This document shows, one piece after another, positions 994-16,172 of a stretch of DNA of 32,269 nt. Location of the stretch: NCBI GenBank assembly GCA_002716765.1, contig PBBY01000016.1, forward strand, positions 111,322 through 143,590, written 5' to 3'. Both the position numbers and the translations under genes were made by a program. Positions within the stretch are counted from its first letter, which is position 1; the number at the start of each line of letters is the position of its first letter. Under the pieces are notes generated by a model. The model was not told the origin of the DNA. It was given only the letters and a program-made list of their open reading frames with translations, and searched no databases. Origin of the DNA: Candidatus Magasanikiibacteriota bacterium. GTDB taxonomy: Bacteria > Patescibacteriota > Patescibacteriia > Magasanikbacterales > UBA922.

Positions 994-1821
994 ATGAACA
1001 AATATTTTGGTATAATTATAGGAATAATAGCAGTAGTTGCTTTAACGATAAGCTATTCTACAATGAACCAGAGTAAATCACAGTCTGTAGCAAAAAAAGT
1101 AGTAAACAGTGGAGAAATTCGAATTGGATATATAGTATATCCTCCACTATTATTTAAAGATCAAACAACAGGTCATCTTTCTGGTATTTCTTATGATCTT
1201 GTAGAAGAGGCTGCGAAAAGATTAAACATAAAAACTAACTGGGTAGAGGAAGTTGGTTGGGGTTCGGCTATTGAGGGGTTAAAAACAAAGAGATATGACT
1301 TACTTGGAACTCAGATGTGGCCAAACGCATCTCGTGCTCGTGAGGCAGTATTTTCTGTTGCACCTATGAATAGTGTTATTTATACTTATACTAAAGCAGG
1401 AGACACGAGATTTTCTACTAATCTTTCAAATTTAAATTCTGCTCAATATACGATAAGCGCTATTGATGGTGAAATGGCAGCTTTTATAGCTAAAGATGAT
1501 TATCCTAAGGCAAAAGTCAATACATTACCCCAACTATCTTCCTATGCAGAAGTCTTTCTCAACATAGTAAATGGTAAGGCAGACATAACTTTTGTAGAAC
1601 CTTCTGCTGCAAACGACTTCCTTAAATCAAATCCTGGACAAATTCAAAGAATAGGAAATAGCGCTGTCCGAACATTTGGAAATAGTTTTGCATTTGCTCG
1701 TGGCGAAGAATCTATGATTTCCATGTGGAATGTTGCCATGGGTGAATTAATGAATGATGGAACTATTTTTAGAATTTTAGAAAAATACAACGTTTCCCAG
1801 GACTATTCAATAAACAGGTAA
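994..1821 (+). CDS. Family 3 extracellular solute-binding protein (ABC importer)
   Basis: This 275-residue protein is the substrate-binding component of an ABC importer and acts outside the cytoplasmic membrane. Residues 5-20 form one hydrophobic segment with no lipobox cysteine, so it is either an uncleaved membrane anchor or a signal peptide. From about residue 40 the order EIRIGYIVYPPLLF, GISYDLVEEAAKRL, WGSAIEGLKTKRYDLL and a late GKADITFVEPSAA is typical of SBP family 3, which usually binds amino acids or similar polar molecules. It is the first gene of a set with a permease (starting nine bases after its stop) and an ATPase. Substrate cannot be told from sequence. The ATG at 994 is the only good start. 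Confidence 0.85.
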   Translation: MNKYFGIIIGIIAVVALTISYSTMNQSKSQSVAKKVVNSGEIRIGYIVYPPLLFKDQTTGHLSGISYDLVEEAAKRLNIKTNWVEEVGWGSAIEGLKTKRYDLLGTQMWPNASRAREAVFSVAPMNSVIYTYTKAGDTRFSTNLSNLNSAQYTISAIDGEMAAFIAKDDYPKAKVNTLPQLSSYAEVFLNIVNGKADITFVEPSAANDFLKSNPGQIQRIGNSAVRTFGNSFAFARGEESMISMWNVAMGELMNDGTIFRILEKYNVSQDYSINR

Positions 1822-1830
1822 ACCCATCTT

Positions 1831-2484
1831 ATGATTCAAGTTTTGATCGAATATCATAACTTGTTATTGGAAGGATTTTCAGTAACCTTAAAGCTTTTAG
1901 GCTCAATTATACTTATTGGTGTCCCGCTTGGGACACTCTTAGGTGTTATTGGAAATAGATACGTTTCAGAAGTAGGAAATATTATAAAGATTGGCCGTTT
2001 TTTTACAAAAGTCATTCCAGTATTAGTATTATTGTTTTGGCTTCATTACCCACTACAGGGTTTATTAGGTATAGTAATTAACCCTTTTTGGACAACAGTA
2101 ATAGCTCTTGGATTTATTAACACTATTGCTACAGCACATTTAGTAACCGCTGAACTGGAATTACTACCAAAGTCATACAGAGAAGCCGGCATAACACTTG
2201 GAATGTCAAAAAACCAAATTATAAGAAAAATTGAGTTACCTATATTATCAAGACGAATTTTACCTCAATTATTATTAAATCAGGCCGCAATGTTGGAATA
2301 TACTCTGTTTGCAAGCCTTATCTCTGTTCAAGAATTATTCCGAACAGCTCAGACCATAAACGCTATGGTTTATAAACCTGTAGAAATATATTCAATTCTT
2401 GTATTCTTCTTCTTCCTTATCCTTACCCCATTCCATTTATTTGTTTCAAAGCTTCAGAAAAAATATTTTACAGAATATGCTTAA
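1831..2484 (+). CDS. ABC importer permease, amino-acid type
   Basis: This 217-residue integral membrane protein is the transmembrane channel of the importer. It shows about five hydrophobic helices. The cytoplasmic EAA loop lies at about residues 118-138 (EAGITLGMSKNQIIRKIELP), the coupling helix that docks on the ATPase. N-terminal LLEGFSVTLKLLGSIILIGVP resembles HisM/GlnP-type permeases. It follows the binding protein by nine bases. Its last codons overlap the ATPase start by eight bases (2477-2484), which suggests translational coupling. Only one permease gene is present, so a homodimer is likely. Confidence 0.88.
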   Translation: MIQVLIEYHNLLLEGFSVTLKLLGSIILIGVPLGTLLGVIGNRYVSEVGNIIKIGRFFTKVIPVLVLLFWLHYPLQGLLGIVINPFWTTVIALGFINTIATAHLVTAELELLPKSYREAGITLGMSKNQIIRKIELPILSRRILPQLLLNQAAMLEYTLFASLISVQELFRTAQTINAMVYKPVEIYSILVFFFFLILTPFHLFVSKLQKKYFTEYA

Positions 2485-3598
2485 ACTAATAAACGCTACA
2501 AAAAAATACATTGATATTGAGGATGTTCGTGGAATTAGTAAAGTTTCTTTTTCTGCTTCTCGTGGAGAAGTTGTTTGTGTTTTAGGTAAAAGTGGGTCTG
2601 GAAAAAGTACTTTACTTCGTGTGCTTGCAGGGCTTGAAACTTTAGACAAAGGTAGTGTTTCTATAAATAAAAATTGTCTCGCAACTTATGTATCACAAAA
2701 TTACACACTTTGGCCACACTTAACAGTCATAGAAAACCTTACCTTAGCACCAAAGTTGAAATCAAAAAACTCTCATAAGACCATTCTCAAAGAAGCTAGC
2801 ACTTTACTTTATCGTTTTGGATTAGAAAATTACGCTAATAACTATCCTTCTGAATTGTCTGGTGGACAAAAACAACGGGTTGCAATTTTGCGCGCAGTAA
2901 TGGCAAAACCGAAAATATTATTATTTGATGAAATTACTTCTGCGCTTGATCCAGAGCTTACAAAAAGCTTGCTTGATCTTATACGAGCACTTGCAAAAGA
3001 TGGTTATACAATGATTATTGTAACCCACCACATGTCATTTGCCATGTTTGTAGCGGATAGAATTTTATTCCTTAAAGATGGTACTGTTCTGCAAGACGAA
3101 AAAGCGATTAAATTTTTTACAGCACAAAAAAATCCTGAAATTAAATCATTTATCCTTGATATTACAAAACGCGATGAATCAATTGAGGTATTTAAAGGGC
3201 GAGAGCAATTTCAAGCATATCATATAGGGCTTATAAAAAGACTACCGAAGGATTCTACTATTTATGTTGCGGGTGCCGTTGGTGACTCCTGGATTCAGCC
3301 AATGGGAGAATTTTACAAATATTATGAGGAAATGAGAATTAAAAAGCGAATTACTTGGAAAATGGTAACATATAGTCAGGGTAAGACGGATCGTAGACTG
3401 GTTAAAGAATTTCCTCAATTAAATCAGTTCCGACGTCTGCCCAGAACAATTCAAAATCCAGCAAATTATTGTGTTACTGAAGATACTGTAATTACTCAGA
3501 TTTTTGAAGATGAACCTACAATTATTCAGATTAAAAATCAACATATTGCGGATGCGTATATGAGATTTTTTGAAGAATTGTGGAATTCTGGAAAATAA
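2477..3598 (+). CDS. ABC importer ATPase fused to a TrmB-like sensor domain
   Basis: This 373-residue protein should power the importer at the inner face of the membrane. Residues 1-225 are a complete ABC ATPase: Walker A GKSGSGKST (37-45), Q-loop Gln74, signature LSGGQKQR (127-134), Walker B ILLFDE (147-152) and H-loop His184. Residues about 240-373 are an added domain with IYVAGAVGDSWIQPMGEFY, ITWKMVTY, FRRLP, NPANYCV, a TVITQIFEDEPTII strand and IADAYMRFFEELW. That order is typical of the ligand-sensing domain behind the helix-turn-helix of TrmB-like regulators; no DNA-binding domain is present here. The ATG at 2477 is chosen over an upstream in-frame ATG because it overlaps the permease stop and begins the usual first beta strand. 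Polar amino-acid ATPases normally end near residue 245. Confidence 0.85.
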   Translation: MLKLINATKKYIDIEDVRGISKVSFSASRGEVVCVLGKSGSGKSTLLRVLAGLETLDKGSVSINKNCLATYVSQNYTLWPHLTVIENLTLAPKLKSKNSHKTILKEASTLLYRFGLENYANNYPSELSGGQKQRVAILRAVMAKPKILLFDEITSALDPELTKSLLDLIRALAKDGYTMIIVTHHMSFAMFVADRILFLKDGTVLQDEKAIKFFTAQKNPEIKSFILDITKRDESIEVFKGREQFQAYHIGLIKRLPKDSTIYVAGAVGDSWIQPMGEFYKYYEEMRIKKRITWKMVTYSQGKTDRRLVKEFPQLNQFRRLPRTIQNPANYCVTEDTVITQIFEDEPTIIQIKNQHIADAYMRFFEELWNSGK

Positions 3599-3605
3599 AA
3601 AATAT

Positions 3606-4385
3606 ATGGTGATTAAAAAATTTGATGGAAAAATTGGTGAGGAATATGAACTGTTCAAATTATCATGTCCTCATTTTGACAAACTAGAAAATACTGTAGG
3701 TAAGATAATAAAAAAGGAATATAAAAATAAAAAAAACAAAACAATTAATGTTCTGGAAATTGGGACTGGACCCGGCTATACCACTTTAATAATTTTAGAT
3801 TCGGATAATAGAACAAATGTGGTTTCTGTTGATAATGAATCACTGATGACCAAGCAAGCGGAAAAGATTTTAAGTACGTTCATAATCAATAATCGAGTAA
3901 AGTTAGTTACAGAGGATGGTTTGAAATTTCTTAAAAAACAAAGTAATGAATCATTTGACATTTTTGCATCTGGCTTTACGTTGCATAATTTTAATAAGTC
4001 ATATAGAGAAAAAGTGATAAAAGAAATTTATAGAATTTTAAAACCAAAAGGAATATTTATAAATGCAGACAAATATGCTCTAGATAATAAATCTGAACAC
4101 ATAAAGTCATTAAACTACCAGTTGCAACAGTTTAAGGATCAGTATTCAAAAATTAACAGGCCTGATTTAACTAAAGAATGGACAAAACACTATTTAGAGG
4201 ATAATGAGCCAGAGGTTATAATGAAGGAAAATGACTCTATTCAGTTTATGAAAAAGGTTGGTTTTAAGGATATTAAAATTGTTTTAAGAATCCAGATGGA
4301 AGCGGTATTTTTTGCAAAAAAAATAGAGTATAAAACACTGACAGTAGAACTAAAAAACACAACTAAACACCCAATTACCCAATAA
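3606..4385 (+). CDS. Class I SAM-dependent methyltransferase
   Basis: This 259-residue protein is probably a cytoplasmic S-adenosylmethionine-dependent methyltransferase. Motif I is VLEIGTGPGYT at about residues 49-59, followed by an acidic motif II (VVSVDNE), ASGFTLHNF and IYRILKPKGIFINAD, the usual Rossmann methyltransferase order. The target is unknown. The ATG at 3606 lies seven bases after the ATPase stop; an in-frame TTG at 3570 would overlap that gene and adds residues unlike the family. It probably belongs to the ABC operon, which is unusual company. Its codons are very rich in AAA, ATA and AAT, like the preceding three genes. Confidence 0.8.
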   Translation: MVIKKFDGKIGEEYELFKLSCPHFDKLENTVGKIIKKEYKNKKNKTINVLEIGTGPGYTTLIILDSDNRTNVVSVDNESLMTKQAEKILSTFIINNRVKLVTEDGLKFLKKQSNESFDIFASGFTLHNFNKSYREKVIKEIYRILKPKGIFINADKYALDNKSEHIKSLNYQLQQFKDQYSKINRPDLTKEWTKHYLEDNEPEVIMKENDSIQFMKKVGFKDIKIVLRIQMEAVFFAKKIEYKTLTVELKNTTKHPITQ

Positions 4386-4691
4386 AATAGAGCAAATAAT
4401 AAATAAGCACTTTTAGGCAAGAAATCAGACCTTTTTATCTTTACATAATATATGTATACAGATTATACAGTTTTTTTATTTACAAAAAGACATACCATAT
4501 AAAATAATACACATATTACCAGACAAAATGGCGTAAAAAAATCATGCTACCATCCCTTAACTCTAAATATCTTTTCTATATTATATACTTTTCCAATTTT
4601 TTATGGTATACTATAAGTACTTATGTTATTATATGTATACACATAAAGGTCGGGTATACAGAAGTGCTATATTAACCTTATTTTACATTTT
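4386..4691 (+). other. AT-rich intergenic region upstream of the DUF378 gene
   Basis: No gene is supported. The 8-base palindrome TGTATACA occurs twice (about 4453 and 4635) and GTATACAG occurs again near 4655. An extended -10 with an adjoining 12-base palindrome lies at 4604-4624. I see no clear terminator for the methyltransferase gene. Confidence 0.5.
4604..4624 (+). promoter_or_regulatory. Extended -10 promoter with ATAAGTACTTAT palindrome
   Basis: TGGTATACT (4604-4612) is an extended -10. The perfect 12-base palindrome ATAAGTACTTAT follows at once (4613-4624), over the expected transcription start. Leader length to the ATG at 4692 is about 70 bases and contains the weak pair AAGGT/ACCTT. 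The half-sites match those after the -10 of the ABC operon. Confidence 0.5.
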
Positions 4692-6468: not shown

Positions 6469-6812
6469 ACTTTTTTTTGTGATTCTTTTTGTAGCGCAGT
6501 ATCGCGTGTCACTTTTGTTATAGTTCTATTAAGTGCCTCAATTTTTATATGCATACGAAATAACATAAAGAAAATAATAGCAACAGAAGAATATAAAATA
6601 AGATCAGCCCCACGCCCTAAACCAAACTTCTCTGCTACAATCGATGTGCTTTCTGGCCAAATAACAAACAGTGCCGAGCACAACCAAAAGCAGGTCCAAA
6701 AAAATGCACCTTTTGTGCCAAGCGATTGATCTTTTTTTCTTTTATGCACACTTACAATAGCAAAAAGTGCAAATAGAATAAAAAAGAGTTGAAAAAGGAT
6801 AATAGTTTTCAT
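6465..6812 (-). CDS. DUF2304 family membrane protein
   Basis: This 115-residue protein has three hydrophobic segments and a C-terminal amphipathic, probably coiled, tail (IKIEALNRTITKVTRDTAL). The FGLGRGADLILYSSVAIIFFMLFRMHIKIE stretch (in parts GRGADL and LFRMHIKIE) is diagnostic of DUF2304. These proteins are commonly found beside DPM1-like GT2 enzymes, as here, and may anchor or assist them; that role is inference. Two bases separate it from the GT2 gene upstream and it overlaps the GT4 gene downstream by four bases. Confidence 0.85.
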   Translation of the reverse strand: MKTIILFQLFFILFALFAIVSVHKRKKDQSLGTKGAFFWTCFWLCSALFVIWPESTSIVAEKFGLGRGADLILYSSVAIIFFMLFRMHIKIEALNRTITKVTRDTALQKESQKKV

Positions 6813-6814
6813 AG

Positions 6815-7477
6815 TTATCGTATAAATCTACCAACAAATAAGTCTTTAATTATTTTAAATCCAGCCAAACTACTTTGACCATATTCATAATATACCACTT
6901 TTACCGGAAATTCCACATATGACAATCCACATGTTTTGGTAAGATAAGGGATTTCGGATGCATGAGCCATACCATCTTGCGTTATATGTATACAAGAAAG
7001 TGCGTGTTTTGTAAGAATTCTAAACCCATTATGAGAGTCAGATAATGACAATCCGGTAAATGGTCGGTCTACAATATATTTAGCGATTGGCCGGACTACA
7101 CACCGCTTAAACCAAGGGATTTTTGATCGATTATCTAAATAGCGAGACCCAAATAGTATATCTGCTTTTTGTTTTTTAAGATGTGCTAATGCTGGTGCAA
7201 TGTCGCACACATCAAATTGTCCATCACCATCAAAATGTAGAACATAATCGGCATCATGTTGTCTGGCAAATGCGTGTCCAGTTTCAAGAGCGGCACCTTG
7301 CCCTCTATTTACTACATGTGACAAGACTGTTGCCCCAGCCTCTTTTGCCACTATTGCGGTATTGTCTTTTGACCCATCATTAACCACCACGACTTTATCC
7401 ACATGATTAAAAAGGCTCCGAACAACGGAACCAATCCTTTTTTCTTCATTATGCGCAGGAACAACGGCAAAAAACAT
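6815..7477 (-). CDS. Family 2 glycosyltransferase, dolichol/polyprenyl-phosphate mannosyltransferase-like
   Basis: This 220-residue GT-A enzyme probably transfers a sugar from a nucleotide donor to polyprenyl phosphate. It has the early VPAHNEEKRIGSVV, the VVVNDGSKDNT nucleotide-binding loop, NRGQGAALETG and the metal-binding HFDGDGQFD (DxD) motif near residues 80-88, followed by GSRYL. These are the landmarks of DPM1-like GT2 proteins. There are no C-terminal membrane helices; the next gene, DUF2304, could provide the membrane part. It lies two bases after the epimerase gene. Confidence 0.9.
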   Translation of the reverse strand: MFFAVVPAHNEEKRIGSVVRSLFNHVDKVVVVNDGSKDNTAIVAKEAGATVLSHVVNRGQGAALETGHAFARQHDADYVLHFDGDGQFDVCDIAPALAHLKKQKADILFGSRYLDNRSKIPWFKRCVVRPIAKYIVDRPFTGLSLSDSHNGFRILTKHALSCIHITQDGMAHASEIPYLTKTCGLSYVEFPVKVVYYEYGQSSLAGFKIIKDLFVGRFIR

Positions 7478-8523: not shown

Positions 8524-8553
8524 ATTATACCACAGTTAGTGCACAGAGATCAA
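8524..8553 (-). promoter_or_regulatory. Promoter for the four-gene glycan operon
   Basis: On the minus strand TATAAT (complement of 8524-8529) is preceded by TTGATC with an 18-base spacer. The -35 box falls within the end of the subtilisin gene. The leader to the ATG at 8496 is about 20 bases. There is no terminator between the subtilisin gene and this operon, so read-through is also possible. Confidence 0.6.
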
Positions 8554-10566
8554 TTGCACCTGCTCGCCATCTTCTAATATTTCTGACGCTATTTTTCTTG
8601 CTTTTCCACTCCACGCCGTCATAGGTTTTGTGTCAGATACTGGTGCAATAATGCAATCATCTTTTCCATCATGGTCATAGTCCCCTACCACAAAACTTGT
8701 TAGCTCATTATATCCTATTGAATATGTAGAAAATTTCCTTTTCAAATTACCTCCTTTTTCTATATAAAACATCCACAAACCGCTTGTTGTATTATCAGTA
8801 AATATATACTCATCTTGTGTGTCACCATCTAAATCCCCAACGCCAAAATGAGACATATTGGTAAGTGAAGAAACAGAGAAAGAATCTACTATCGCAAGCG
8901 CATTATTGAATCTATTCACAAAAACAGTGTTATTGTTTTGTGTATATGCAACCACTATTTCTTTTTGTACTGTTTTTCTATTATATCCAATACTCAATAG
9001 TGCCCCGTCGTGCGGCATTGGCATGGTGTGTTCTTTCAGCAATTCTCCATTTTCTGTATATACCCAAAACAATGTTTTACTTGGATATTTTGGTGAAATA
9101 ATCACTTCTGTTCCTGGATTGTTATATACATCAGCGATGATTGCATCTACCGGTCCTTGCGCTGGAATTGACCACTCTTCCATTGTATTCCACTTATTAT
9201 TATATATCTTTATTGCTGCGCTCTGTTCGCTACTATTATATTTTGCGGCAATAAAAGATAAAGAATCAGCTACTTTTGTACCAGAAATAACATCAGCGCT
9301 TTTCAAAAATGGCACTAAAATACGACGGTTCCCCACTTCTCCTATGGTGTTTTTATACACAATACCTCTTTTTTGTGAAAAATAATATACATGAGAAAGA
9401 AGTTTTGTGCTGGTAATACGATCTGCAGCATAGGCAACCGCCTTATTAATCTGCAATAACCCTTTTCCGTATAAGTTGCGATATAGCTCATCATCTTTTG
9501 GTGGTGTTTTATGTGTACTAAGTAATATTGCATCATATAACTCATGTACACGCCAAATTGGCTGTAGTGATTTTACTAATGCTAAAGCACCGCTTACAAA
9601 CGGTGTGGCAAAAGATGTACCATTCCATGGTCCGGTATATTCTTTATCTAATCCCACAGAAGGAGCATGGCGAACTGTACTAGTGATTCCCACACCTGGC
9701 GCAGTAAGATCGACACAATTGGAACCAAAATTAGAAAACAAGGCAGAAAGATGGTCTTCAGAAATAGCACTTACTCCCAAGACTTTTTGTACATCAACAG
9801 TATTATCCGAACATATTGGATAAAAAGGGTTTGTATTAAGAAACACATTGCTATTTCCTGCGGCAGCAACTACGGCAACATTATTATTGTATGCGTAGTC
9901 AATTGCATCAGCCACTGCCTGATCGTATGCTTGGCTGACAATACTTAAATTAATAATATCGGCACCATTATCAACAGCATAATAAATAGCACTTGGTAAC
10001 AATTCTATACCACCAAAACCACTATTATCTATAATTCGAAGATTCATTAATTGTACTTGCCAGTTAATCCCCGCACCTAATCTATTATTATTTCCGGTTG
10101 CCCCTATAATTCCTGCAATAAGTGTCCCATGATGAATAACTCCATCTTTACGCTGTTTATCTGTTAACGTGTTTACCGGTGGGACTGGATTATTATTTCC
10201 CTTTTTTTCTTCTTCATCAATAACACCATCATTGTTTGTGTCCTCGGGAATAAAATTCCACCCCCAAACATCGTCTATATATCCATTATTATCGTCATCT
10301 TTTTTATTATGTGGGATTTCTGCTCTATTTCTCCAAACATTATCTCGCAATTCTGTATGATGTTGGTCAAATCCATTATCTATAATAGCTACAACCACAT
10401 GTTTAGAACCGGTAGTTTTTTTCCATGCATCAAATACACCAGTATCGGTATATGACCATTGCTGTATTAACGGATCATTTGCTGTTTGTGCAAAACTATT
10501 TTGTGTAAAGAAAAAACACGCACAAATGAGTACGCTTATAATAATACATGTGGTGTTTTTTTTCAT
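8536..10566 (-). CDS. Secreted S8 (subtilisin) peptidase with C-terminal FG-GAP-like repeats
   Basis: This 676-residue protein is a secreted serine protease. A signal peptide covers about residues 1-27. The triad is Asp63 (VAIIDNGFD), His146 (HHGTLIAG) and Ser318 (NGTSFATP), with oxyanion Asn238 (AAAGNSN). Between Asp and His lies an insert with two EF-hand-like loops, DDDNNGYIDD (90-99) and DTNNDGVIDEE (109-119), and WGWNF, typical of a subset of S8 enzymes and likely to bind calcium. After the catalytic domain, from about residue 390, come beta-rich repeats including GVGDLDGDTQDEY and VVGDYDHDGKDD, which resemble FG-GAP/VCBS calcium-binding repeats. The gene starts eight bases after the TSP3 protein gene, so the two are co-transcribed. 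Likely roles are surface or exported protein processing. Confidence 0.9.
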   Translation of the reverse strand: MKKNTTCIIISVLICACFFFTQNSFAQTANDPLIQQWSYTDTGVFDAWKKTTGSKHVVVAIIDNGFDQHHTELRDNVWRNRAEIPHNKKDDDNNGYIDDVWGWNFIPEDTNNDGVIDEEEKKGNNNPVPPVNTLTDKQRKDGVIHHGTLIAGIIGATGNNNRLGAGINWQVQLMNLRIIDNSGFGGIELLPSAIYYAVDNGADIINLSIVSQAYDQAVADAIDYAYNNNVAVVAAAGNSNVFLNTNPFYPICSDNTVDVQKVLGVSAISEDHLSALFSNFGSNCVDLTAPGVGITSTVRHAPSVGLDKEYTGPWNGTSFATPFVSGALALVKSLQPIWRVHELYDAILLSTHKTPPKDDELYRNLYGKGLLQINKAVAYAADRITSTKLLSHVYYFSQKRGIVYKNTIGEVGNRRILVPFLKSADVISGTKVADSLSFIAAKYNSSEQSAAIKIYNNKWNTMEEWSIPAQGPVDAIIADVYNNPGTEVIISPKYPSKTLFWVYTENGELLKEHTMPMPHDGALLSIGYNRKTVQKEIVVAYTQNNNTVFVNRFNNALAIVDSFSVSSLTNMSHFGVGDLDGDTQDEYIFTDNTTSGLWMFYIEKGGNLKRKFSTYSIGYNELTSFVVGDYDHDGKDDCIIAPVSDTKPMTAWSGKARKIASEILEDGEQVQLISVH

Positions 10567-10574
10567 ATATGAGG

Positions 10575-12086
10575 CTAGAGCGGATAATATCGCGTGTGAA
10601 TTTTTTGCAATGGTCCACGAATATATTCATTATCCGAAAGAGTAATCCACCCTTCTACAACCGGTAAATCGAGAGTAAATGGTGGTTCTATGATAAATGT
10701 TTTATTAAAGAAATTGCTAGTAAATACACGACTGGACGTGTTTTTGGCCAAATAATACGCTTTATTATTTTGGTGAAAGTAGTACAACCTATTGTTTCGA
10801 GAAACTACAGAACCTTTTGGATAAGTATATCCATTACCTCGTATCTGTGTAATAGGTCCTGCACCAACCGGTGATCTTCCTAATATAATTTCGGTGCCAT
10901 CAGCCATACCATCTTGGTCTGTATCTGAAACAGTTGGGTCGCTAAACCAAATAAAAATCTCTTCATAATCACTTACTCTGTCGTTATCTGTATCGACCAA
11001 ACTATCGCTCGTCCCATATTCTAACTCCACACTTTTGATCACCCCATCTCTATCCGCGTCATCCTCTACCCGTTCTTTTGACACAGGTTCTATGCTGTAA
11101 AATGCACGATATGATGGATGTAGTTCTACAACCCTTCTTTGCCAGCGATCTCCGTAAATAACATAGGCTTCTGCCTCGGAACGTAATGGTCGTAAATAAC
11201 ATCCATGCTCTACCGCATATACTTGTGCCATATGCGCAAATTTTACTAACCAGGTTCCTGGCCGAACACAAAGTGACTTACCTATATTATATCTATCCAA
11301 TCTATTTTGACTTACAAACACCACTTTTGACAATGGTCGATTATGTGATAAAAATGCACTTGAGTCTAAAAATGGGTGTAATGCTTCGTCAAAACCTAAG
11401 TAGTATACTCTGTTATTTGGGCCTTTTACCACAGTTCCTTCTGGGATATAGTCAGGTTTTGGTGAAAAAGTAATCTTTCTTTGTATTTTCTGTGTTTTAC
11501 CATTACCATCACGAAATAATGCATAAACCGTTTTTTCTCCTACTCCTGGTGCAAGTACCCACGGAACTCGAGATTTTACCGGTTTATACAATGCATTGTC
11601 AAAATTACTCGTATTACTAAATGCAACCGCCTCTACACCAGAAGAAAACGTAAGTGAGAGCTCTACTTTTCTAGTGTCAGTTTCTTTTGCTGCTTTATTA
11701 ATATGCATATTTACAGCCATGGTTTTTGGCACAATGAGCCTGATTCTATCAAAATACACATCTGACACTTGGTTTTCTTTATTTCTAAATTGAACGTATA
11801 GCGATTTAACACCAGAACCAAATTCTAAATATTGATGAAATTGCCGCCTTATTGGTTGCCACGGAATATTACGCAGGTTTTCGTGTGTATGAATACGCAT
11901 TTGCGTCATTCCTTCTGGTGGAGAAATACCTACCTGCACGTATCGATTTTTTATTGTTGACTTTCCTCCAGATATAATAATAACCTCTTTTTTTGCCGCA
12001 TAAACACTATCTCCCAAAAGGACTACCATCGATACAAAAAAGAGTATACTGATGAAAAAGATTCTTTGGTATTGTTTTTTTCTCAT
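10575..12086 (-). CDS. Secreted protein with Ig-like and TSP3-like calcium-binding repeats
   Basis: This 503-residue protein has a signal peptide (about 1-30, ending VYAA). Two beta-sandwich-like repeats centre on SGVKSLYVQFRNKENQV (about 91-107) and GVGEKTVYALFRDGNGK (about 181-198). Residues about 214-335 resemble a surface domain that I associate with Patescibacteria: GTVVKGPNNRVYYL, RPGTWLVKF, VYAVEHGCYLRPL, SEAEAYVIYGDRW. Residues about 343-400 carry three aspartate-rich loops, DADRDGVIKSVE, DTDNDRVSDYEE and DTDQDGMADGTE, as in thrombospondin type 3 repeats, expected to bind calcium. No catalytic motif is seen. It shares an operon with the secreted S8 protease and could be its substrate, partner or a surface adhesin; this is inference. 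Confidence 0.75.
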   Translation of the reverse strand: MRKKQYQRIFFISILFFVSMVVLLGDSVYAAKKEVIIISGGKSTIKNRYVQVGISPPEGMTQMRIHTHENLRNIPWQPIRRQFHQYLEFGSGVKSLYVQFRNKENQVSDVYFDRIRLIVPKTMAVNMHINKAAKETDTRKVELSLTFSSGVEAVAFSNTSNFDNALYKPVKSRVPWVLAPGVGEKTVYALFRDGNGKTQKIQRKITFSPKPDYIPEGTVVKGPNNRVYYLGFDEALHPFLDSSAFLSHNRPLSKVVFVSQNRLDRYNIGKSLCVRPGTWLVKFAHMAQVYAVEHGCYLRPLRSEAEAYVIYGDRWQRRVVELHPSYRAFYSIEPVSKERVEDDADRDGVIKSVELEYGTSDSLVDTDNDRVSDYEEIFIWFSDPTVSDTDQDGMADGTEIILGRSPVGAGPITQIRGNGYTYPKGSVVSRNNRLYYFHQNNKAYYLAKNTSSRVFTSNFFNKTFIIEPPFTLDLPVVEGWITLSDNEYIRGPLQKIHTRYYPL

Positions 12087-13954: not shown

Positions 13955-14027
13955 ACACACTATAGATTAATGAATATAAACGTGATACACTCAATTATAC
14001 AAGATTATACGAAGATTGACAATTATT

Positions 14028-16172
14028 ATGAAAATATTCACATCACTACAGAATAAAACACACCTTTTTGCTCTCTACCTTTTTGGCTGCCTGTGTTTTG
14101 CTATACAACTCTTTACCTCCCATTCGCTAATTATTGGTATTTTGGGTATGCTCTGTTATTTTTCTGGTCTTTCAATTTGGGTTGCACAGCTTCATACTTT
14201 TGGCTCTTCTTTTGTTACCCGAATATTTTGGAGTAAGGTTCTATTACTTTTTTTTCTTATACCACTGTGTACCATTACCTATTATATTTACGGCATAACT
14301 CCTATTTCTGCATTAGGTATTTGTCTTTTTTCATCAGTCCTGTTTCTTAAAAAAAGCACCGAGACGGCACTCCCTGAGTTGGTATATAAAAAAGAAAGTA
14401 ACTCTGTCTCTTTTTTGCTTCTTATTACCATTGTGATTGCCGGTGTTTTACTAACAACATTAATACAAAATAAAACAACCGGTATACTTATTTCACCGTG
14501 GCAAACACTTGAGCCGTGGTTTTTTCTGCTATATGGTTTTGGGTTGGCCTGTCTTTTTATTGCCAGCTTTTATACAAAAAACCACAGCACCCGTCTATTT
14601 CTTCATTCCGTGTTTTTGTTTATTGCTTTTGGTGTTGCGGCCATTTTATATACTTATGGATTTGGTTTTGATGGGTTTATTCACAGAGCAACAGAAGAAT
14701 GGATTAAAAATCAAGGTTTTATACTCCCAAAAAATCCCTTTTATATTGGGCAATACAGTATACTCGTTTGGCTTTCTTTACTTACCTCTATTCCTGTGTT
14801 TTATCTGGATATATTTTTTGTTCCAGTTCTTGCAGCGACATTATTACCACACACTGTGTCATATACGCTAAAAAAAGTGTGTCATATACCAAAAAATATT
14901 GGTATTACTCTTACGTGGTGTATTCCTTTTCTTTATTTTATTACCCTCAATCTTACTACACCGCATAATGTGGTATTATTATATGTTATACTCGCGATTT
15001 TTAGCTCACTCTTATACATAAGAAATCATATATCATTTCTTGTACCACTACTTATTGCTATTGGCGCAATAGTGACACACCCATTACTTGGCGCTCCCGT
15101 CTTTTTATTTGTATGCACACTTTTTGTGTTAAAAAAACAAAAACGATATAATCTGCAAATACTGTTTCTTTATTTTGTGTTATTAAGCATTTTACCAAGC
15201 GTTCTTTTTATTTTCCAAAACATGCGACATGGTTTTGGTTTTCCGCACATTACTAACCCCTTCCTTCACGTTCAAGAGTTTTTTGCATTATTTGCCAGAC
15301 CATATTGGTATATTGCTCGCTCACATATACAATTAGAAATTCTGTATACGTGGCAACAATGTATTGCGCCAATTATTATATTATTTGTCCTGTTTGGGTA
15401 TTGGAAACAAAAAAATAAATCCCCTCTTACCCATCTTTTTGTATTAAGTTTTTTTGGGTGCATTTGTGCCGCATGGTTTTTGCGTAGCTGGCTTTTTTTT
15501 CCGGGTGTCGCAGCCCCAGAACAAACAAATTATCCGCTGCGCTTTTTATGGGCTAGCCCACTATTTCTGTTACCGTGGTCAATGCACGCAACAGTTCTTT
15601 TCTATAAAAAAATTGCACTCTTTGTGCATAAAAAAAGTATTGGCATAAAATATATTGCCCAAACAAGTATTCTTTTAAGTATTGGTACGATACTTATGGT
15701 ATCATTGTACTTTTCCTATCCACAAAGAAATGACAAGGCACGATTTCCTGGATACAATGTTACCGCGGCTGATTTTGCTGCTGTAGAGTGGATTCACAAT
15801 GATAATACAGAATATAATTATATTGTCCTTGCCAACCCACTTACGAGCGTTGCAGCGCTTACCAAATATAGTTTTGCAAAACATTTTATTACCGCAAATC
15901 AAGAAGAGGTATTTTACTATGCCATTCCGTCTGGTGGACCATTATACAAAGAATACGGCAATATGTTGTACAAAGAACAAAAAAGAGAGCATATACAAAA
16001 TGCACTTTTACTGACTGGCGCAAAAAAAGCCTATTTTGTGATTAATAGTTATTGGGGAAATTTTGATGCAATTGTTGCGGGCGCAAAAAAAACAGCAGAC
16101 TCATGGCATGCTATTAATAATGGTGAGATATATATCTTTTCTTATTTGGCAGATTCAGCACTAGATTTGTAA
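14028..16172 (+). CDS. Large polytopic membrane protein, possible GT-C-type glycosyltransferase
   Basis: This 714-residue protein has many hydrophobic segments through about residue 570, then a soluble C-terminal part (about 575-714) with TAADFAAVEWIHNDN and IFSYLADSALDL. The layout of roughly a dozen or more membrane helices and a late exported domain is that of GT-C enzymes and oligosaccharyltransferase-like proteins. I see no diagnostic early DD or DE motif that settles it. The phrase FGFDGFIHRATEEWI after a membrane helix could be the exposed acidic loop. The ATG at 14028 is preferred to a TTG at 14016. Its end overlaps the end of the convergent GT4 gene by 31 bases. A flippase or polymerase for the same glycan is the alternative. 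Confidence 0.75.
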   Translation: MKIFTSLQNKTHLFALYLFGCLCFAIQLFTSHSLIIGILGMLCYFSGLSIWVAQLHTFGSSFVTRIFWSKVLLLFFLIPLCTITYYIYGITPISALGICLFSSVLFLKKSTETALPELVYKKESNSVSFLLLITIVIAGVLLTTLIQNKTTGILISPWQTLEPWFFLLYGFGLACLFIASFYTKNHSTRLFLHSVFLFIAFGVAAILYTYGFGFDGFIHRATEEWIKNQGFILPKNPFYIGQYSILVWLSLLTSIPVFYLDIFFVPVLAATLLPHTVSYTLKKVCHIPKNIGITLTWCIPFLYFITLNLTTPHNVVLLYVILAIFSSLLYIRNHISFLVPLLIAIGAIVTHPLLGAPVFLFVCTLFVLKKQKRYNLQILFLYFVLLSILPSVLFIFQNMRHGFGFPHITNPFLHVQEFFALFARPYWYIARSHIQLEILYTWQQCIAPIIILFVLFGYWKQKNKSPLTHLFVLSFFGCICAAWFLRSWLFFPGVAAPEQTNYPLRFLWASPLFLLPWSMHATVLFYKKIALFVHKKSIGIKYIAQTSILLSIGTILMVSLYFSYPQRNDKARFPGYNVTAADFAAVEWIHNDNTEYNYIVLANPLTSVAALTKYSFAKHFITANQEEVFYYAIPSGGPLYKEYGNMLYKEQKREHIQNALLLTGAKKAYFVINSYWGNFDAIVAGAKKTADSWHAINNGEIYIFSYLADSALDL

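Follow-up and report, generated by a model that had tools for sequence, protein, structure and literature searches.

The ABC ATPase encoded at positions 2477–3598 of the window, i.e., the whole stretch of 32,269 nucleotides analysed from a Candidatus Magasanikiibacteriota bacterium, is a fusion protein. Its importer ATPase is followed by a domain that structure prediction and profile comparison place with the PLD-fold effector domains of the transcription regulators TrmB and TrmBL2. The ATPase fusion is a rare arrangement, yet a conserved one. We found eight copies in Patescibacteria, all of them beside family 3 binding proteins, and in 8/8 the gene for the binding protein comes first, then that for the permease and last the fused ATPase gene. 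A preliminary description of this DNA had proposed a survey of homologues for the ATPase–sensor order next to family 3 binding proteins, and ours found it in these eight copies.

Table 1. Features of the importer gene cluster and of the fused gene (positions in the window)
Feature	Position	Strand	Remarks
SBP_bac_3 gene	994..1821	+	membrane-anchored family 3 solute-binding protein; Pfam E 1.2e-19
Permease subunit, polar-amino-acid type	1831..2484	+	BPD_transp_1 E 3.1e-14
Fused gene: ABC ATPase and predicted TrmB-type PLD-fold effector domain	2477..3598	+	373 aa
ATPase (NBD) part, residues 1–232	2477..3172	+	ABC_tran E 4.8e-29
Walker A GKSGSGKST, residue 37	2585–2611	+	ATPase part
Q-loop, Q74	2696–2698	+	ATPase part
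Signature LSGGQ, residue 127	2855–2869	+	ATPase part
Walker B ILLFDE, residue 147	2915–2932	+	ATPase part
SALD, residue 155			ATPase part
H-loop, H184	3026–3028	+	ATPase part
Predicted TrmB/TrmBL2-type effector domain, residues 233–373	3173..3595	+	AF2, Foldseek, VIA, hhalign
Signature GAVGDSWIQPMG, residues 266–277	3272..3307	+	common to fused and first regulator effector domains
NPANYCVTED, residues 327–336	3455..3484	+	strand where PLD enzymes would hold HxK
SAM methyltransferase gene	3606..4385	+	directly downstream of the fusion; Methyltransf_25 E 8e-13

The fused frame is free of internal stops in translation, and its ATG overlaps the final permease codons. The preliminary description had claimed a complete set of ABC motifs, and we located Walker A, Q-loop, LSGGQ, Walker B, SALD and H-loop at the positions given in Table 1; these motifs are intact in 7/8 fusion copies. 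The nearest solved relatives of the binding protein were amino-acid binding proteins (AncCDT-1, E 5e-17), and the permease matched the NCBIfam family HEQRo_perm_3TM at E 3.6e-9, under the family cut-off. The single permease gene presumably serves as a homodimer. With a family 3 binding protein, a HEQRo-type permease and an ATPase carrying all motifs, the cluster has the components of a polar-amino-acid ABC importer, and by its sequence the ATPase is of the polar-amino-acid (ArtP/GlnQ) type. No NCBIfam equivalog cut-off was reached, the best being GlnQ with 189 bits against 379, and we hence assign no substrate. The full-length model matched the amino-acid NBDs of ArtP and the Art(QN)2 ATPase (2olj, 4yms) with 38–40% identity over about 240 residues. 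Those chains stop there and have no effector domain, in contrast to the 373 residues of the fused ATPase. As controls we used two unfused family 3 systems (L093 and L094, in genomes G581 and G667), where the ATPases have 239–243 residues.

The SAM methyltransferase gene downstream of the fusion is possibly part of the same operon. It directly follows the fused ATPase in 2/8 clusters, i.e., in the window and at locus L068 (4402–5139) only, and its product could be functionally linked to the fused ATPase. An Rfam scan of the operon region gave no match. Elsewhere in the window, a subtilisin-like protease is encoded at 8536–10566 on the minus strand, within a region of polysaccharide and glycosyltransferase genes; close to its C-terminus it has an FG-GAP-like repeat. 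Two further frames of 503 and 718 aa (10575–12086, minus strand, and 14016–16172, plus strand) had no Pfam match at E 1e-5.

We then turn to the residues behind the ATPase. According to the preliminary description, they resemble a TrmB-like effector domain and differ from the regulatory domains already catalogued at the C-termini of ABC ATPases. Its landmarks lie at residues 262–278, 327–333 (NPANYCV), 342–350 (IFEDEPTII) and 357–369. Residues 235–373 gave no significant match in Pfam or NCBIfam (best, EF-hand_3 at E 0.12), and the catalogued candidates NIL, TOBE/OB and CBS were rejected on this ground. An AlphaFold2 model of the domain, built on 21 related domains, reached a pLDDT of 93.5 and a pTM of 0.87 with the secondary-structure order b-a-b-a-a-b-a-b-b-b-b-a. 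In a Foldseek search of the PDB, the top six matches of this model were all chains of TrmBL2 (best, 5bqt at E 4.7e-7). Members of the PLD superfamily, Nuc and Zucchini among them, came next, as did TrmB (2f5t) at E 3.8e-5. Comparison with VIA gave Z 12.0 against 5bqt (rmsd 3.2, 131 residues aligned) and Z 11.3–11.9 against the TrmB structures 2f5t and 3qph, the latter with Z 11.9. PLD proteins reached a best Z of 13.2 against 11–12 for TrmBL2 and TrmB, and by fold the two groups are effectively tied. Because PLD enzymes share it, the fold alone cannot decide for TrmB, and our assignment builds on the fold together with homologues that bear a helix-turn-helix.

The structural comparison and such homologues were needed since direct sequence matches were weak. 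PDB sequence searches with the domain or its profile remained below usable levels, and an hhalign comparison of domain set A3 with just the effector sequence of TrmBL2 was likewise too weak (probability 2.4, E 0.02). By contrast, a profile of three fusions aligned over residues 232–372 with the C-terminal effector halves of ten helix-turn-helix regulators of the TrmB-like type (probability 98.8, E 4.9e-17); one of the ten carries a close relative of the domain. A profile of TrmB-like regulators in turn matched TrmBL2 in the PDB near full length, helix-turn-helix included, at E 2.8e-7. The genome of the window itself encodes five TrmB-type proteins; among them, a 527-aa regulator on contig 17 begins with a TrmB winged helix (PF01978, E 2.8e-6) and has the domain behind it in three tandem copies, and its homology to the fused domain was evident from sequence (29% identity, E 1.2e-21). 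These results support a separate domain at residues ~233–373 that is of the PLD-fold effector type of TrmB and TrmBL2.

The likeness to TrmB that had been suggested from the sequence therefore stands for the PLD-fold part common to TrmB and TrmBL2, but not for the additional sugar-binding lobe of TrmB. The domain aligns to TrmB residues ~106–239, at which point the fused chain ends, and the C-terminal lobe is absent. Sugar contacts in TrmB are mostly made at residues 305–326 (PMC4158304), and since the lobe is missing, a sugar ligand cannot be inferred for the fused domain. Neither the domain nor its relatives matched PF11495 (Regulator_TrmB), a narrower family that includes the sugar lobe and that was above cut-off in 0/57 genomes of the class; the fused protein is hence not filed under PF11495. 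TrmBL2 of Pyrococcus furiosus (5bqt, 5bpd, 5box, 5bpi) is a DNA-binding protein in which the same effector-domain fold follows a winged helix, whereas the fused protein carries this fold behind an ABC ATPase and has no DNA-binding part. With TrmB of the same organism the PLD-fold part of the effector region is alike, and the winged helix is lacking along with the lobe. We rejected a whole-protein TrmB regulator, the N-terminal part being an ABC ATPase with no winged helix-turn-helix. PLD enzymes have the catalytic motif HxK...D. In the seven fused copies scanned, HxK was absent from residue 226 to the end; an active PLD phosphodiesterase was thus rejected, and judged from its sequence the fused domain would be non-catalytic.

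In the class, the domain is common as part of regulators. It was present in 170/286 genomes at E ≤ 1e-6, and relatives were found in frames of about 250, 380, 510, 680 and 790 aa, in which a helix-turn-helix precedes between one and five copies. Among the best 30 loci, the partner was an ABC ATPase in five and a helix-turn-helix in the rest, apart from one frame with neither. An alignment showed G266, G269, W272 and M276 kept in 8/8 fused and 3/3 regulator domains. Both groups also keep D270, G277, K290, I292, Y299, P328 and N330, and furthermore D336, Q341, F343, I350, I352 and N354. From this pattern, residues 266–277 (GAVGDSWIQPMG) are a candidate pocket region. In a domain tree, the fused domains grouped with the first, helix-turn-helix-proximal effector domains of multi-domain TrmB regulators (support 83/98) and apart from the second to fourth regulator copies; they were not resolved as one clade. 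At loci L112 (355–2715), L123, L074 and L014, TrmB-like regulators of up to 787 aa carry four or five tandem PLD-fold effector domains, and these copies form distinct, position-specific subfamilies, as if each were sensing something different.

Profile searches found the fusion in 5/381 genomes of the class sample (that of the window, G245, G248, G227 and G211) and in 2/380 of the phylum sample (that of the window and G691, whose class gave 1/49); in the 86 genomes of the window genome's order there was no other. The score gap was wide: no fusion scored worse than E 7e-88, and no other ATPase better than E 1e-54. A scan of GTDB contigs, run with one short pattern that more distant fusions outside Patescibacteria could escape, added two fusions (L068 and L069) with a domain identity of 69%. 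The nearest named relatives of the fusion that were found are Patescibacteria MAGs (Ca. Paceibacterota, Ca. Uhrbacteria). Overall identity to the window fusion was 59–71% in four other genomes and 46–47% in another two; the operon was the same in all six. In an ATPase tree the fusion ATPases clustered (support 87/64), which is compatible with a single origin. One copy, at L088 of G211 (ATPase region ~1444–2612, minus strand), has an in-frame TAG at the Q-loop (VVF*QLFIWPHL) and a signature altered to ASIGQ; it may be a decaying copy, a sequencing error or a case of recoding.

The fusions fall into two subgroups, between which identity was ~46% for the ATPase, ~44% for the effector domain, ~31% for the permease and ~26% for the binding protein. 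This divergence would tie the effector domain to the ATPase and not to the binding protein, and it fits sensing of one common signal, or an unchanging structural role, better than recognition of each importer's substrate; both are indications only, because binding proteins evolve fast anyway.

TrmB-like regulator genes flank 3/8 clusters, namely L069 and L086 (divergent; 940–1911 and 3905–4684, respectively, both minus strand) and L092, on both sides (2062–2925 and 6519–7289, both minus strand). At 16 flanks, four regulator neighbours were observed against ~0.09 expected (Poisson 2e-6), a rough figure whose expectation assumes about five regulator genes per ~900 genes, with the gene count estimated. 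The flanking regulators form a recognisable subfamily with the motif W[WY]G[FY]QD and, later, W[FY]W. Their effector belongs to a different subfamily from the fused domain, and the same ligand should therefore not be assumed.

We propose that the effector domain is an allosteric regulator of transport, through which a small cytoplasmic ligand would control the ATPase, probably via a pair of domains; we give this reading an even chance. It derives from the position of the domain and from its homology to sensor-type domains, the demonstrated part being the fold, the homology to TrmB-type regulators and the conservation of fusion and operon. At its C-terminus the ATPase would have gained a PLD-fold effector domain derived from a TrmB-like transcription regulator. 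This domain would occupy the place that NIL/ACT, OB/TOBE or CBS domains have elsewhere among importer ATPases. As there is only one permease gene, each transporter would hold two ATPases and thereby two effector domains side by side, which may pair over the ATPase dimer. A helix of residues 220–232 closes the ATPase part and continues into the effector domain; in the full-length model, which is only moderately confident (pLDDT 78, pTM 0.57), it meets the first domain strand (residues 235–240) and would make a plausible lever. TrmB proteins have a dimerisation helix in the matching position. A small cytoplasmic molecule binding at or near the pair would favour or block closure of the ATPase, and uptake would thereby be set by the internal state of the cell. 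The direction of control we can only infer, inhibition by an accumulated product being the commoner precedent.

The regulator-type tail on an importer ATPase suggests that some of these tiny, uncultured bacteria can adjust uptake directly, through a domain that otherwise adjusts gene expression. As sensor and ATPase stay alike between subgroups while the binding proteins are ~26% identical, the signal would more likely be a common metabolite than the importer's own substrate. Tentatively, homologous PLD-fold domains might read a single class of cytoplasmic signal that sets both transcription, through TrmB-like regulators with the same first effector domain, and uptake, through the fused ATPase, with a common metabolite and not the substrate as ligand; we regard this extension as possible more than probable. 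As a counterpoint, the domain may bind no small molecule, given that the sugar lobe of TrmB is absent here and likewise from TrmBL2, which has been described as lacking it.

The domain could instead have a purely structural role, which we consider unlikely: as a dimerisation module of PLD fold it would hold the two ATPases to each other without binding a ligand. Such a role would suit the non-catalytic fold, the closest solved relative TrmBL2 without the sugar-binding part, and the co-evolution of the domain with the ATPase and not with the binding protein. However, the closest solved ATPases (4yms, ArtP) have about 240 residues and no such domain, and the GDxW...MG residues kept in fused and regulator domains point to a pocket in common more readily than to a common surface. 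Still less likely, in our view, is that the domain docks by pairing with TrmB-like regulators and so reports transport activity or ATP state to transcription. MalK–MalT is a precedent for a transporter ATPase reporting to a regulator; the five TrmB-type proteins of the genome, one with a closely related domain, the regulator genes adjoining 3/8 clusters and the two to five tandem copies within regulators, which make self-pairing plausible, all point the same way. But 5/8 clusters have no neighbouring regulator, and the neighbouring ones belong to the other effector subfamily.

Strict trans-inhibition, in which the domain binds the imported substrate and shuts the importer upon its accumulation, is the mechanism with the best known precedents at the C-termini of importer ATPases (MetN, ModC; PMC10710835). 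We find it no likelier than docking, as binding proteins at ~26% identity between subgroups contrast with sensors at ~44% that share the same signature, although this is not decisive. The window belongs to a reduced genome whose assembly is a draft of 22 contigs (886 kb, completeness 90%), in which chimeric assembly or read-through could have joined an ATPase gene to a regulator fragment. We deem such an artefact negligible, the same fusion and operon occurring independently in other genomes, and exclude assembly error or chance because the domain architecture and the gene order recur in seven more copies.

The allosteric reading has counterparts in domains of other folds. Importer ATPases are switched by C-terminal domains in MetN (C2 domain), ModC and CBS-bearing importers such as OpuA, i.e., in the same position as here and plausibly in the same allosteric role (PMC10710835). 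Those domains belong to other families, none of which residues 235–373 match in Pfam. The C-terminal domain of NrtC, from cyanobacterial nitrate importers, is an NrtA-like binding protein. NrtC is likewise an ATPase fused to a ligand-binding-type domain, which is needed for regulated uptake (PMC6603209) but, unlike the fused domain, is not a PLD-fold effector. Patescibacteria have an NrtC-like architecture at locus L039 (372–2078, minus strand; genome G002, same family), where an ABC ATPase of 569 aa, carrying a binding-protein-like domain at its C-terminus, adjoins a permease and another binding protein.

In the literature searched, which left most subscription journals outside its coverage, we found no TrmB effector domain on an ABC ATPase, in agreement with the earlier claim of an undescribed fusion, and no family model covers it. 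What is new is the domain used: importer ATPases with regulatory domains were known before, and so were effector domains of the TrmB type. Patescibacteria combine very small genomes with a dependence on nutrient uptake; to our knowledge, the control of this uptake is scarcely known. The fused ATPase would extend the short list of switch domains of ABC importers by another fold, and the domain is evidently portable, being found after DNA-binding domains as well as after an ATPase. As a soluble domain of 140 residues, it may also offer a handle for seeking the ligands of the abundant TrmB-like regulators of Patescibacteria.
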